Shown here in pieces: positions 328 to 9,059 of a DNA stretch of 10,031 nucleotides. Where the stretch lies: contig PWOI01000057.1 in assembly GCA_003557485.1 (NCBI GenBank), positions 1-10,031 of the forward strand, in the 5' to 3' direction. The stretch comes from Elusimicrobiota bacterium (GTDB taxonomy: Bacteria; CG03; SLGR01; PWQF01). Each line of letters starts with the position of its first letter. Position 1 is the stretch's first letter. The notes beneath the pieces were generated by a model that was not told where the DNA came from, made no database searches, and saw only the letters and a program-made list of their open reading frames with translations. A program made the translations under genes and the position numbers.

Positions 328-378
328 AAGGAGGCGCAATGTCTATTCCTGTTCCCATTTCTATTGAATGACCTCCTT
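328..378 (+). promoter_or_regulatory. hairpin enclosing an 11-codon mini-ORF with a strong ribosome binding site
   Basis: AAGGAGG (328-334) sits four bases before an ATG at 339. The frame encodes MSIPVPISIE and stops at 371. Immediately after it, CCTCCTT (372-378) is the exact complement of the Shine-Dalgarno. Pairing would form a 7-bp stem with a 37-base loop and sequester the site. It lies just upstream of and overlaps the MNT1 -35 hexamer (377-382), so it would not be in the MNT1 transcript. It may belong to a read-through transcript or be the degraded start of a lost gene: AAGGAGGCGC also precedes the recombinase partner gene. Function unknown. Confidence 0.35.
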
Positions 379-405
379 GACAGAAACAAATTCGTTAATT
401 ATAGT
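377..405 (+). promoter_or_regulatory. sigma-70-type promoter of the first MNT/HEPN operon
   Basis: TTGACA (377-382) is separated by 17 bp from TATAGT (400-405), a near-consensus sigma-70 promoter. Transcription would start around 411-413, giving a leader of only about 23 bases before the ATG at 435. The -10 hexamer lies inside the upstream operator (393-410) and the start site at the edge of the downstream operator (413-430), so a bound repressor would block polymerase directly. Confidence 0.75.
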
Positions 406-430
406 TAACATATGTTAAGTAAAATTTACA
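393..430 (+). promoter_or_regulatory. tandem operator pair in front of MNT1
   Basis: Two 18-bp sites are separated by 2 bp. The downstream one (413-430) reads TGTTAAGTAAAATTTACA. The upstream one (393-410) reads TGTTAACTATAATTAACG on the minus strand. They meet in a perfect 14-bp palindrome, TTAACATATGTTAA (405-418). The same site type, duplicated with the same 2-bp spacing, lies before MNT2 (4808-4845). Position over the -10 and start region suggests repression. The winged-helix domain of the downstream gene is the obvious candidate binder; that part is inference. Confidence 0.65.
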
Positions 431-1072: not shown

Positions 1073-1477
1073 ATGGGCGCAGGAAAAATAAAGGTCAGAG
1101 AGGAAGATAAATCAAAAGCTTTAAAGTATCTTAAAAAAGCGGAAGATAATCATTCTCAGATGCTTAAATCTTTCAGAGAGGGTAATTATAACGCTTCGTC
1201 AACCCTGGCAATACAATGCGTTATTTCTGCAGCGGATGCTGTTTGTATACATGAGAAAGGCATTCGTTCGATATCACAAAATCATCTTGATCTGTGCGAA
1301 CTTATAAAATCTATACCGCTTCCCGAATCTAGGAGCAAGAGTAATTCCCTGAAGAAAATCATTTCAAAAAAGAACCTTATACAATATGAAAGCAGGAGTA
1401 TTTACGGCAGGGAAGCAGATGAAATAGTAAAAAATGCAAGCAGATTTTTCAGGTGGGCTGCTACTGTTTTAAAATAG
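1073..1477 (+). CDS. HEPN-domain protein (candidate RNase toxin), copy 1
   Basis: This 134-aa, mostly helical protein is of HEPN size and starts 2 bp after the MNT gene, so the two are surely co-transcribed. The candidate catalytic motif is R65-x5-H71 (RSISQNH), within the R-x4-6-H range of HEPN RNases. The Tyr two residues after His that is AMPylated in HepT (RX4HXY) is absent: here the sequence is H-L-D. A conserved C-terminal block, LIQYESRSI, is shared exactly with the second copy (3759-4166); overall identity is about 60%. Its last 17 bases overlap, tail to tail, the 3' end of the recombinase gene. Toxin activity is inferred from family and context; it could instead be a substrate-binding partner of the NTase. 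Confidence 0.8.
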   Translation: MGAGKIKVREEDKSKALKYLKKAEDNHSQMLKSFREGNYNASSTLAIQCVISAADAVCIHEKGIRSISQNHLDLCELIKSIPLPESRSKSNSLKKIISKKNLIQYESRSIYGREADEIVKNASRFFRWAATVLK

Positions 1478-3065
1478 AATTGAATCTTCTGTAAAAATTT
1501 ATGTTATCACTGCCGTCCAGCCCGGGGAGCCAGTTCTTCTTTTGACGGATTTTTACCCTTTTTTTTAATTTTTTTTTCGGGGTGCCCTTGGCACCTAAAG
1601 AGGGGGGTAAGTCTTTTTCTGAAAAAAGATCGTCGGAAAAATCTCCTGAAGAGATAAATCTGTAAGGCTCTCTAAAGGAAAACCTCAGCTTCTTCTCTTT
1701 TAGAAAAAAGTTCGAACCTGTTTTTTGGATAATTTTAGAGATTTCATCATAATTTTTTCCAGAAATAATTTTCTCGACGGAGTTGCAGGTGTTTACTGCT
1801 TCTTTTGCGAGTTCGAACCACTCCAGGTGCCCTTCGTCTAAATCGCTGATTAGCCCATTCAGTTCGGCCTTTCTTTCAATCATTTTTTTCTTCCTGCTCT
1901 GAAATTCTTCTTCGCTGAGATACTCAGCAAGAAAAGTATCTATTAGTTTTTCCATCTGTCCGGAAACTGCGGCGAGCTCGTCCCGGGCCTTGAGAATCTT
2001 TCTTTCTATTTCAGATTCATCAACGGTTTTATGTTCTTCTAATTGATTTAGAATAAGGGCACTGTCCTCATCATTAATATATATTGATTCAAGTGCCTCG
2101 GTGATCTGTGCCGCAAGTTCTTTTTCCTCAATGTATCCCTGCGAACATTTGCCTTTTCTCTTGGTGCAGTGGTAGTAAATATATTTTCCCTTCTTTTTTT
2201 CTGCGGTAATCATTGCGCCGCATTCGCCGCAGCTCATATAGCCTCTGAAAGCGAAATGATACTGCGCCTTTCTTGTAGGTTTTGATCTTTCCTGAAAAAC
2301 TTCCTGAACCCTGTCGAAAAGGGACTTTGTTATTAGAGGAGGGTGACTTCCTTCAAAGAGCTCTCCCTTAAGACTAAAAACGCCATAGTAAAAGGGGTTT
2401 TGAAGGGTTCTGACCATTATGCATTTTGAGATTGGCTTATTATAACGGCTTTTTAAACCGATCTGCTCTGATATCCGGCATATTTCACGGATTGAGTGCT
2501 CTCCATCTGAGTATACTTCAAATATTTTCCTGACCAGCGGGGCTTTTTCAGGGTCAAGGACAATGGTGTGGTTTCTTAAGTCGTTGTTATATCCTATAGG
2601 AGCCCATCCAGGAAACTCTCCTCTCTTAAGTTTCTCTCTTATTCCCCGCTTAACGTTTTCGGACAGATTATCGATATAATATTTGGATTGTCCAAAGGCT
2701 ATGTTAAGCATGAATTTCCCGTATGCCGAGTTGTCAAAGCGGAATGTCGGGAATTTAAGGTCTTTTATCATTCCGGTGTCTAAAAGAAAAAGTATCTTGC
2801 CCCCATCAATGGAATTTCTGGCCAGCCTGTCCGGGTGCCAGGCAATTATTGAGTCCGCCTCACCGGCCTCAATGGAGGTAAGCATTTCGTTGAAAATTTT
2901 TCTTCCAGGCTTTTTAGAAGTCCGAGCCTCTGTGTATTCCCTGATAATTGTAAGGTTCTCCTTTTTAGCCAGTTCGCGAAGTTCTCTAAGCTGTGAATGA
3001 ATAGATAGAACCTGTCTGTCTTCTGCATCGCTGGATTTTCTGGCGTAAAGGAGGTACCTATTCAT
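1461..3065 (-). CDS. large serine recombinase (resolvase/invertase superfamily)
   Basis: This 534-aa protein has the large serine recombinase layout. The N-terminal resolvase domain (1-145) contains YARKSS with the nucleophile probably S11, and HPDRLARNSID (77-87). A recombinase domain follows (about 150-265, with GWAPIGY and NPFYYGVF). A zinc ribbon (C279, C282, C300, C307) and a charged coiled coil (about 345-410) come next. Such enzymes recombine short attachment sites, which fits the core repeats around it. The ATG overlaps the stop of the upstream small gene by 4 bp (ATGA), implying translational coupling. The last 20 or so residues, from W512-L-P514 on, are encoded by the 31-bp junction repeat and by antisense of the HEPN gene, so the C-terminus depends on what lies beyond the core. 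A run of nine T at 1569-1577 is eight A in the inverted copy; with eight, the protein would stop near residue 499. Confidence 0.9.
   Translation of the reverse strand: MNRYLLYARKSSDAEDRQVLSIHSQLRELRELAKKENLTIIREYTEARTSKKPGRKIFNEMLTSIEAGEADSIIAWHPDRLARNSIDGGKILFLLDTGMIKDLKFPTFRFDNSAYGKFMLNIAFGQSKYYIDNLSENVKRGIREKLKRGEFPGWAPIGYNNDLRNHTIVLDPEKAPLVRKIFEVYSDGEHSIREICRISEQIGLKSRYNKPISKCIMVRTLQNPFYYGVFSLKGELFEGSHPPLITKSLFDRVQEVFQERSKPTRKAQYHFAFRGYMSCGECGAMITAEKKKGKYIYYHCTKRKGKCSQGYIEEKELAAQITEALESIYINDEDSALILNQLEEHKTVDESEIERKILKARDELAAVSGQMEKLIDTFLAEYLSEEEFQSRKKKMIERKAELNGLISDLDEGHLEWFELAKEAVNTCNSVEKIISGKNYDEISKIIQKTGSNFFLKEKKLRFSFREPYRFISSGDFSDDLFSEKDLPPSLGAKGTPKKKLKKRVKIRQKKNWLPGLDGSDNINFYRRFNSILKQ
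1502..1532 (+). repeat. 31-bp direct repeat, inner copy (cassette 1/recombinase junction)
   Basis: This tract is identical to 276-306. It lies 25 bp after the HEPN1 stop, and its core (1524-1532, complement of TGGCTCCCC) abuts recombinase-specific sequence. On the minus strand it supplies recombinase codons for WLPGLDGSDN. With the outer copy it brackets cassette 1 in the same orientation, so recombination between the copies would release a 1226-bp circle carrying MNT1 and HEPN1. Confidence 0.85.
1523..1710 (-). repeat. 188-bp inverted repeat, left arm (recombinase 3' end)
   Basis: Read on the minus strand, this segment runs from the codons for LKEKKLRF to the core TGGCTCCCC and matches the plus strand at 3480-3667. 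The differences are a few substitutions near the interior end, a synonymous change (ttaccc against ttacca), one base in an A-run, and a compensating one-base indel near the interior end. Near-identity over 188 bp, including synonymous sites, implies a recent duplication or ongoing homogenisation. The arms enclose the recombinase and its partner and end exactly at the shared core. Confidence 0.9.
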
Positions 3066-3364
3066 ACTATTCTGGGTCTTACGGTCCTCAGCATCTTAAG
3101 AGTTTTGTTTACCTCTCTGATCTTTTTCTCGGTTTCTCTTCTAATGGATATCTCTCTTATGAGCTGCCTGGGCTCTTCTTTACCTATATAGTCGTGCTTA
3201 AGCTTACCGCCTTTTGTATGGCTGTGATAATAATAAAACTGATTACCGATTTTTCTTTTTGTAACAGTGCCCTTTGGCAGAGGTTTAAGTTTTTCCTTTA
3301 AGCGCATGAGCTCATTATTGTATTCTGAATGTTTTTCTTTTAAGTATTTCTTAATCTCTTCCAT
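3062..3364 (-). CDS. small DUF6788-like protein, recombinase partner
   Basis: This 100-aa basic protein is helical at both ends, with a central strand-like segment FYYYHSHTKGGKLKHDYIGK (residues about 43-62). The preceding LPKGTVTKRKIG, then YYY and a YIGK motif, resembles the DUF6788 family of small uncharacterised proteins; this assignment is from memory of the family pattern. A strong ribosome binding site AAGGAGG (complement of 3373-3379) lies 8 bases before the ATG, and a good promoter precedes it. Its stop overlaps the recombinase start by 4 bp. The basic composition and coupling suggest a DNA-binding accessory or directionality factor, but no function is demonstrated. Confidence 0.75.
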   Translation of the reverse strand: MEEIKKYLKEKHSEYNNELMRLKEKLKPLPKGTVTKRKIGNQFYYYHSHTKGGKLKHDYIGKEEPRQLIREISIRRETEKKIREVNKTLKMLRTVRPRIV

Positions 3365-3758: not shown

Positions 3759-4166
3759 TTATTTTTCGATTACAGAAACAACCCAGATATAAAATCTGCT
3801 CGCCCATTTAACGATCTCTTCAGCTTCGGTTTGGGTGATGCTTCTGCTTTCATACTGGATCAGATGTTTCTTCGCAATAATTCTTTTGAGAGAATTGGAT
3901 TTATTGGACGCTTCTTTGAGCGGGATTGATTTAACAAGGTCACATACATCTCTGTGATCCTGGGAAACAGATCTAATTCCCAGTTCATGGACACAGATTG
4001 CATCAGCTGAAGATATGGCGCATTGAACAGCTAATGTTGAGGCGGCGTTAAAATTTACATTTCCCAAAGCAGATAACATCTGTGCGTGGTTATCAGAGGC
4101 TTTTTTCAGGTAATCTTTTGAGGAGGCCGGGTTTTCTGTTTTAGTTTTTATTTTGCGCGCAGACAT
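3759..4166 (-). CDS. HEPN-domain protein (candidate RNase toxin), copy 2
   Basis: This 135-aa protein aligns without gaps to the HEPN protein at 1073-1477 with 81 of 134 identical residues by eye. It keeps R65-x5-H71 (RSVSQDH), the CAISSADAICVHELGIRS block and LIQYESRSI. As in copy 1, no Tyr follows the His (H-R-D), so the Tyr-AMPylation mode described for HepT is not supported by the motif. Its ATG follows the MNT2 stop with no gap, so the genes are tightly coupled. It is read towards the recombinase, mirroring copy 1. The strongest divergence is at residues 11-40 and 111-135, which may reflect partner specificity. Confidence 0.8.
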   Translation of the reverse strand: MSARKIKTKTENPASSKDYLKKASDNHAQMLSALGNVNFNAASTLAVQCAISSADAICVHELGIRSVSQDHRDVCDLVKSIPLKEASNKSNSLKRIIAKKHLIQYESRSITQTEAEEIVKWASRFYIWVVSVIEK

Positions 4167-4805
4167 TTATTTGAGTTCGGTTATATCCTTGCCGTACACA
4201 ACTATGTGGGATTGAATTAAACCAGATACCGGGGGCAACTGTTCCCTGATCCGCCTGATGAACTCTTCTTTACTTTTAATATACACATCAAGATGTGCTC
4301 CGAAGTAATTGTAAAAATCGTTGGAAATTTTCTCACGAAATATCTTCTCAACTTGATTAATCTCCGAATCATCCTTTACTACAATGGCTATGTCTACATC
4401 ATTGATATTATTACTATTCTCTCTCACAAAACTGCCATATAAATATACTGAAGATATTTTGTCAGTAATATTTGATCTAAACATCCGGTCTTTTATGAAT
4501 TGAGATATATCTTCTTTGAGGGAGAGTTCTTTAGTAAAAGCGGGTATAAGTATTTCCTTTACTAGCCTGTTATTAGAATTCAGGCTGTAGAGGTGCTGTT
4601 TTCCTATGATGTTTAGTTTAAGAATATCCTGGCTGTATAAATCCTTTAGCGCGGTATGCACCGCCGGTGCGGTAAAACCTGTTTTTCTCGCGACTTCTCT
4701 GCCATTAGCAGTATAATCCTCTCTCCGCGAAGTAAACAGCCTGATTATTTTGAGTTTCAGGTCAGTGTTCAATATGTTATCAAGCGTCTGTTTGTTAATG
4801 CTCAT
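4167..4805 (-). CDS. winged-helix/MNT-type nucleotidyltransferase (antitoxin-like), copy 2
   Basis: This 212-aa paralogue of MNT1 is about 53% identical and collinear. The winged helix is about residues 10-81 (GREVARKTGFTAPAVHTALKDL). The NTase domain has YGS (G124-S125), D136 and D138 in NDVDIAIV, and D173 in FGAHLD. The catalytic carboxylates are kept, but the usual Gly and Ser of GSxxxG...SDxD are replaced (ENSNNIND), so nucleotide handling may differ from copy 1. The stretch between the winged helix and the NTase and the region near residues 182-191 are the most divergent. The start lies 2 bp after the operator pair, and no Shine-Dalgarno is seen. Role by analogy: it neutralises HEPN2 and represses its own operon. 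Confidence 0.85.
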   Translation of the reverse strand: MSINKQTLDNILNTDLKLKIIRLFTSRREDYTANGREVARKTGFTAPAVHTALKDLYSQDILKLNIIGKQHLYSLNSNNRLVKEILIPAFTKELSLKEDISQFIKDRMFRSNITDKISSVYLYGSFVRENSNNINDVDIAIVVKDDSEINQVEKIFREKISNDFYNYFGAHLDVYIKSKEEFIRRIREQLPPVSGLIQSHIVVYGKDITELK

Positions 4806-4860: not shown

Positions 4861-4866
4861 TGTCAA
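4861..4866 (-). promoter_or_regulatory. probable -35 element of the second MNT/HEPN operon
   Basis: A consensus TTGACA is read on the minus strand 56 bp before the MNT2 start. The best -10 at 17-18 bp spacing (TTAAGT or TAAGTA) is poor, while a good TATACT inside the operator lies too far away (22 bp). The promoter is therefore likely here but its exact -10 is uncertain; either choice overlaps the operator pair. Confidence 0.4.
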
Positions 4867-4901: not shown

Positions 4902-4941
4902 CAACCGGGAGTTTGCAAGTAGTACAACCGGGAATTTGCAA
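4902..4941 (+). repeat. two 17-bp iterons at 23-bp period (block A)
   Basis: CAACCGGGAGTTTGCAA (4902-4918) and CAACCGGGAATTTGCAA (4925-4941) lie 23 bp apart start to start. They match the four-unit block at 8860-8945, and the first unit is identical to the unit at 8929. They lie upstream of the second MNT/HEPN operon. They could be the multiple end repeats of a decayed insertion sequence (IS21-type ends have such repeats) or binding sites for a regulator. No transposase is in the window. Confidence 0.7.
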
Positions 4942-5001
4942 TTGTGCCTAATTTTGGTGGGGATATTGAGTGATGGAAAAGAGGATATATAAACACTGTC
5001 A

Positions 5002-8847: not shown

Positions 8848-8876
8848 ATAGTAATACTTAAACCGGGAAAATGCAA
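8848..8876 (-). promoter_or_regulatory. possible promoter of the ATPase operon
   Basis: On the minus strand TTGCAT (8876-8871) and TACTAT (8853-8848) are separated by 17 bp, 30 bp before the ATPase start. Both hexamers are imperfect. The -35 falls inside the first iteron of block B, so a protein bound to the iterons would compete with or contact polymerase. Confidence 0.35.
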
Positions 8877-8945
8877 GCCTTGTAGCCGGCAATTTGCAAT
8901 GATTGCAACAGTGGAAATGCAAGCATTTCAACCGGGAGTTTGCAA
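8860..8945 (+). repeat. four 17-bp iterons at exact 23-bp period (block B)
   Basis: Units start at 8860, 8883, 8906 and 8929, each 17 bp with a 6-bp variable gap. The last is CAACCGGGAGTTTGCAA; the others are degenerate, most conserved in the GG and the TGCAA end. Two further units of the same type lie at 4902-4941. The period is close to two helical turns. The short repeat, degenerate units and 6-bp gaps rule out a CRISPR array. Decayed insertion-sequence end and regulator-binding array are both possible. Confidence 0.75.
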
Positions 8946-9008
8946 TAAATGTTCAGTTCGGGTGGGGATGTTTAGTTCAGAAAATGAAGATAGAAAAATA
9001 CTATGTCG

Positions 9009-9038
9009 TCTTAATTTAAGGCGTAAATGCTATTGGTT
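9009..9038 (+). repeat. 30-bp exact repeat, copy B
   Basis: This tract is identical to 5002-5031. It overlaps the start of the tRNA-like fragment and so may represent the arm of an attachment site next to a tRNA target. Confidence 0.8.
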
Positions 9039-9059
9039 CGAGTCCAACTCGCGGAGCCA
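9033..9059 (+). tRNA. 3' fragment of a tRNA, resembling tRNA-Asn (partial)
   Basis: The tract has a T-arm GG-TTCGAGT-CC followed by AAC, an acceptor strand TCGCGGA, discriminator G and an encoded CCA. An acceptor partner TCCGCGA would be expected at the 5' end, as is common in tRNA-Asn, but it and the D and anticodon arms are not present upstream. The first T-stem base pair is also broken (A opposite C). It is therefore a 27-bp remnant of the kind left at integration sites in tRNA 3' ends. Confidence 0.6.

Follow-up and report, generated by a model that had tools for sequence, protein, structure and literature searches.

Two wHTH-MNT and HEPN gene pairs

The window, by which we mean the whole stretch of 10,031 nucleotides that was analysed, carries two gene pairs of the same kind in opposite orientations. 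On the plus strand wHTH-MNT 1 (435–1070) is followed by its partner gene HEPN 1 (1073–1477), and on the minus strand wHTH-MNT 2 (4167–4805), which is 54% identical to MNT1, is followed by HEPN 2 (3759–4166), which is 60% identical to HEPN 1. MNT1 was assigned from Pfam (PF01909/PF18765), its catalytic motif, AlphaFold and Foldseek; the PF01909 scores of the two MNT proteins are 32.4 and 29 bits (cut-off 21). HEPN 1 is a PF05168-type protein (23.6 bits, cut-off 22) that lacks the RX4HXY motif, and HEPN 2 has no Pfam match of its own.

The MNT1 protein is composed of three parts, an ArsR/SmtB-like winged helix (residues ~1–76), a linker helix (79–109) and a minimal nucleotidyltransferase with a GSx10DxD motif (~110–205). 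The AlphaFold model (pLDDT 83, pTM 0.62) has a winged helix with its recognition helix at residues 45–57 and its wing at 61–74, then the long helix 79–109 and the MNT domain. Foldseek matched the N-terminal part to CadC, SmtB and NolR (TM-score about 0.6–0.7 by target length) and the second part to MntA (6m6u, 7bxo) and AAD(9). The fold predicted for the N-terminal domain is thus the ArsR/SmtB-type winged helix; the repressors of that family share it but act alone, whereas here the domain is fused to MNT.

Paired dyads at the promoters of the MNT genes

The earlier note on this DNA described twin 18-bp dyads, 2 bp apart, ending 2–4 bases before the ATG of both MNT genes, and these lie exactly where it placed them. 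In front of MNT1, CGTTAATTATAGTTAACA (dyad 1, 393–410), TA and TGTTAAGTAAAATTTACA (dyad 2, 413–430) are followed by four bases and the ATG at 435. In front of MNT2, read on the minus strand, the promoter-proximal dyad 1, TGTTAAGTATACTTTACA (4845–4828), is separated by GT from the start-codon-proximal dyad 2, TGTAAAGCTGACTTAACA (4825–4808), and two bases lead to the ATG at 4805. With up to three mismatches allowed, the palindromic consensus has four matches in the window, all at the MNT1 and MNT2 pairs, against 0.01 expected from shuffled sequence, which excludes chance as the origin of the dyads.

In the same assembly, contig C141 carries a third wHTH-MNT gene (89% identity to MNT1), in front of which the paired dyads recur at the corresponding position, TGTTAATTATAGTTAACA-TA-TGTTAAGTAGGGTTGACA-TAAT-ATG. 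When the whole assembly (2.07 Mb, 212 contigs) was scanned with the 26-bp core TGTTAA-N6-TTAACA-N2-TGTTAA, matches with at most two mismatches were found at the three wHTH-MNT promoters (MNT1, MNT2 and C141) and nowhere else; at three mismatches one more place appeared, which is the background level. No other promoter with the pair was found in the window's genome. The two best single-dyad matches elsewhere in the genome, on C99 and C147, lie inside unrelated open reading frames and were rejected as regulon members.

The dyads coincide with predicted promoter elements. MNT1 is preceded by an exact TTGACA −35 box (377–382, plus strand) and, after a 17-bp spacer, by a TATAGT −10 box (400–405, plus strand) which is inside dyad 1, while dyad 2 adjoins the predicted transcription start and occupies the space between it and the ATG. 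MNT2 also has an exact TTGACA (4861–4866, minus strand); its −10 box is weak, the best candidate having three mismatches (L003). Among the relatives described below, an exact TTGACA was found in 64 of 76, at a nearly fixed offset from the array within each subfamily (about −16, −30/−31, −34 or −8), and the −10 box lies within the array or a few bases ahead of it. An array that overlaps or directly follows the −10 box has the position of a repressor site, not that of an activator site.

The geometry is kept among relatives

Homologues were collected from the phylum of the window, from public genome contigs (Elusimicrobia and Omnitrophota records) and from the genomes behind those matches; the search also took in 384 genomes from the phylum to which G016 belongs (this genome was reached via an Omnitrophota record). 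This yielded 86 distinct wHTH-MNT homologues in Elusimicrobiota and Omnitrophota, down to ~26% identity. Viral contigs were scanned and plasmids were searched by tblastn, and neither held a relative, so that the family is known here from genome assemblies only. The HEPN gene is downstream of MNT in 73 of 80 relatives.

The upstream regions were scanned without any consensus, using a score that measures only the likeness of the four half-sites within each promoter, over dyad lengths of 14–25 and gaps of 0–8, in the 85 promoters with enough upstream DNA. The scan peaked at a length of 18 and a gap of 2 (mean 30.4, versus 19.3 for shuffled sequence), and the close (60) and mid (20) groups each showed this peak when taken separately. 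The remaining strong peaks have the same 20-bp period with the half-sites shifted, and a 19+2 layout was preferred only by the five most distant members; L048 and L105 score 36 with that layout. The earlier note had named homologous operons without the paired sites as one finding that would count against an operator, and the survey of relatives did not refute the proposal in this way. Upstream of the relatives, 67 of 80 homologous promoters reach a score of at least 27, compared with 12 of 1868 control windows from the same loci and 1 of 80 second-gene starts; relatives that show no array, such as L103, are few. The proposal that the dyads are a functional operator is strongly supported by a geometry kept in nearly all relatives and by a position that fits a repressor.

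The two 18-bp dyads 2 bp apart amount to four half-sites of 8 bp that are alternately inverted and follow one another every 10 bp, with 2 bp between them, one per helical turn. Half-sites inside the array match the consensus at 6.1–7.3 of 8 positions, versus 2.2–2.6, about chance, at 10-bp steps outside it. Half-sites 2 and 3, which form a central dyad spanning the 2-bp gap, are on average the best conserved (7.3 and 7.1 of 8). In the MNT1 group half-site 4 is the least well kept, and this accounts for the imperfect dyads of the window.

Other layouts were met at the margins of the family. In L026 and L027 the array upstream of the MNT gene is longer by one 10-bp step, with a fifth half-site (TGTTTGG) after the other four. 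In L012 (801–1430) the DxD of MNT is broken (DVG for DVD) and no HEPN open reading frame was found downstream, and the twin operator is intact; this locus is possibly a repressor-only remnant. We do not extend the exact 18+2 geometry to the wider PDC-M05A family, where a search for it showed only a weak tendency to 21–22-bp periods. The genome of the window has further wHTH-MNT genes of PDC-M05A type, L107 and L108 (on C152 and C12), with other promoter dyads; that of L108 is GTGTA-N6-TACAC, present twice with 22-bp spacing.

The half-site word varies with the recognition helix

Within this common frame the letters of the half-site differ between subfamilies, the words being TGTTAAGT, TGTAAGGT, CGTAAGGT, TGTTTAGA, TGTTCGGT, TGTCCACA, TGTAACAT, TGACCTAA and TGGTAATA. 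Distances between half-sites correlate with distances between helices 3 (0.57–0.62). The partial correlation with helix 3 after removal of the MNT-domain effect is 0.43–0.47 (reached in 0 of 200 permutations), and the reverse partial correlation, with the MNT domain, is smaller (0.17–0.33). Of all protein columns, residue 46, at the start of helix 3, shares the most information with base 5 of the half-site (1.08 of 1.21 bits; the next column reaches 0.82). Proline or methionine at this position goes with A (35/35 and 15/15), alanine or lysine with T (7/7 and 2/2), and threonine or serine with C (7/8 and 6/7, hence 13/15 for either). The switch is also seen between two close pairs, whose MNT domains are 68% (L065/L066) and 77% (L068/L025) identical. 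On the tree base 5 changes seven times, and the independent-pairs test, which has low power, found two well-supported pairs, both concordant and not significant alone. The correspondence between helix 3 and half-site, given the few independent switches on the tree, is therefore best taken as suggestive. If the residue-46 code is true, changing P46 to A would move the preference from TGTTAAGT toward TGTTTAGT. The correspondence also offers a ready natural data set on protein–DNA recognition. Taken together, the conserved geometry, the promoter position and this covariation strongly support the earlier proposal that the fused winged helix is the likely binder.

Three paralogues of a single genome, G179, have three different words, TGTTAGGT, TGTTTGGT and CGTTAGGT, an observation which suggests that insulation between modules also occurs. 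In the genome of the window the three MNT copies have similar half-sites and a similar helix 3, which makes cross-binding among them likely and the cross-regulation raised in the earlier note plausible.

A model for autoregulation and its alternatives

From these comparisons we consider it highly probable that the paired dyads serve the MNT–HEPN operon as its operator, that they are bound by the winged helix fused to MNT itself, and that the consequence is negative autoregulation. The other ways of reading the repeats differ widely in how well they agree with the data. They could act in RNA, as a leader hairpin controlling translation or transcription, and not as a DNA operator, which would suit the many relatives in which the array follows the promoter and precedes the start codon, and those in which it overlaps the ATG; but the −10 box of MNT1 is inside dyad 1, which would leave this dyad outside the transcript, and from one subfamily to another the array takes different positions relative to the promoter without a change in its 20-bp helical period. 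We disfavour an action in RNA and give it a vanishingly small chance. It is also very unlikely that the dyads serve another host-encoded regulator, such as a global repressor, with the fused winged helix having some other target, because the half-site word differs among paralogues of one genome, as in G179, because it follows helix 3 of the adjacent gene, and because the search of the window's genome found the pair at no promoter but those of the wHTH-MNT genes.

A different question is how the protein would sit on a real operator. The outer 18-bp dyads might be the wrong frame, with one dimer bound to the central dyad formed by half-sites 2 and 3 and further protomers extending to one or both sides. 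This arrangement would agree with the better average conservation of half-sites 2 and 3, and with the frequent absence of half-site 1 in the TGTAACAT subfamily and of half-site 4 in the TGTAAGGT subfamily. However, four near-perfect half-sites are common, and in such members the outer dyads are as good as the central one. Since the central dyad is the best conserved on average, sequence does not settle the dimer frame, and we regard a central dimer as a sizeable, if doubtful, possibility.

Returning to the wHTH-MNT protein as the repressor of its own operon, two dimers are probably bound on one DNA face, where they would stand side by side, 20 bp (about two turns) apart. Bound in this way they would cover the −10 box and the transcription start, block RNA polymerase and shut off their own MNT–HEPN operon. 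Binding by the two dimers may be cooperative, and repression could be relieved when the protein or its HEPN complex is titrated, degraded or AMP-modified. As in autoregulated operons of the toxin–antitoxin type, the putative operator sites overlap the operon promoter, and the first gene encodes a protein with a predicted DNA-binding domain that appears matched to the operator (from the structural model and from helix 3, with few independent switches). Judging from the layout that dozens of relatives keep, and from half-site letters that change in step with the recognition helix, the wHTH-MNT protein very probably represses its own two-gene operon.

More speculatively, the family may combine a rigid two-dimer frame with a fast-diversifying code in which residue 46 sets base 5, so that paralogues can be either wired together, like the three copies here, or insulated, and HEPN, which lacks the RNase motif, may act not as a toxin but as a co-regulator that is itself modified and influences DNA binding, linking AMP transfer to transcription. 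We think this larger picture rather unlikely, and offer it tentatively.

Relation to known HEPN/MNT systems

Archaea have many Class II HEPN/MNT modules, and bacteria have them too. In the pairs studied here the MNT motif GSx10DxD is kept in 78 of 79 relatives, and K100, Y105 and H71 are invariant in the 73 HEPN partners. RX4HXY is absent from these partners, which have no histidine at the motif position and read K-N-(L/M/I)-(V/I/A)-(Q/E/A)-Y-E there. Class II pairs (PF05168/PF01909) have been described as an HEPN without RX4HXY in which a tyrosine is conserved, with an MNT carrying GSX10DXD (PMC7641770), and these features place the module in Class II. The toxin function of this class was left open, no biochemical studies being known to the authors (PMC7641770). 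Because the partner HEPN belongs to the class that lacks the RNase motif, the antitoxin role that the earlier note gave to MNT is a putative one.

The type VII system HepT/MntA (Class I HEPN/MNT; SO_3166/SO_3165 of Shewanella) is similarly a two-gene operon with MNT first, GSx10DxD in MNT and a conserved HEPN tyrosine, but its HEPN has the RX4HXY RNase motif, absent here, and it lacks the fused ArsR-like winged helix and the like dyads at a fixed 20-bp spacing. In HepT/MntA the MNT transfers AMP to HEPN and neutralizes its toxicity, an activity for which the signs in the present family are the catalytic motif and the tyrosine alone. Gel-shift and promoter-fusion experiments showed that SO_3165 binds its own promoter, which contains two palindromes, and represses it; the protein has no predicted DNA-binding domain, the palindromes are dissimilar and the promoter effect is 1.6-fold (PMC4621449). 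In AbiE (type IV), the winged-helix protein AbiEi negatively autoregulates its operon through two 23-bp inverted repeats that overlap the promoter (PMC7319586). AbiE thus resembles the present case in winged-helix autorepression of a nucleotidyltransferase-containing operon through two promoter repeats, but its repeats have 3 bp between them, and its winged-helix antitoxin and its DUF1814 nucleotidyltransferase, which is the toxin, are separate proteins, whereas here wHTH and MNT are one polypeptide and the partner is HEPN. Among database models the closest is that of PDC-M05A, a candidate defence protein; it covers most of this MNT protein (residues 10–196, E 2e-14); the HEPN partner has no PADLOC match. 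PDC-M05 was described as a nucleotidyltransferase plus HEPN (PMC12988326).

Autoregulation by paired operators is of a known kind, and what is new is a built-in winged helix in a Class II HEPN/MNT module, together with a family-wide rigid putative operator frame and a changing recognition word. In the open-licence literature that was searched, paired operators of wHTH-MNT proteins, or their link to the fused winged helix, were not described. Doubts raised in 2009 over whether MNT–HEPN pairs are true toxin–antitoxin systems rested partly on the absence of any evident transcription-regulating component (PMC2701414). Here a predicted DNA-binding part is fused to MNT, and dozens of genomes have a putative operator ahead of the gene, so that experiments can directly address self-regulation, cooperativity and whether HEPN or AMP transfer affects DNA binding.

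Repeats and a recombinase gene in the window

The MNT1–HEPN1 cassette is bracketed by direct copies (278–306 and 1504–1532) of a 29-bp repeat, TTATCACTGnCGnCCAnCnCGGGGnGCCA. On C141 the same repeat occurs at 1845–1873, 3196–3224 and 4957–4985, bracketing the third MNT–HEPN cassette and a neighbouring cassette; it looks like a boundary (att-like) repeat of mobile gene cassettes. Between the two MNT–HEPN cassettes of the window lie a large serine recombinase gene (1461–3065; Resolvase, Recombinase and zinc ribbon) and a small gene (3062–3364), and a 159-nt inverted repeat of 94% identity (1551–1709/3482–3640) joins the 3′ end of the recombinase gene with the region upstream of the small gene. 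Tandem repeats with a period of ~23 bp (AACCGGGAnTTTGCAA type) at 8861–8951 precede a DUF4143 ATPase gene and have a partial second copy at 4903–4947; the adjoining segment 4956–5038 resembles 8961–9045, as if the ATPase cassette had been duplicated and the copy had lost its gene.
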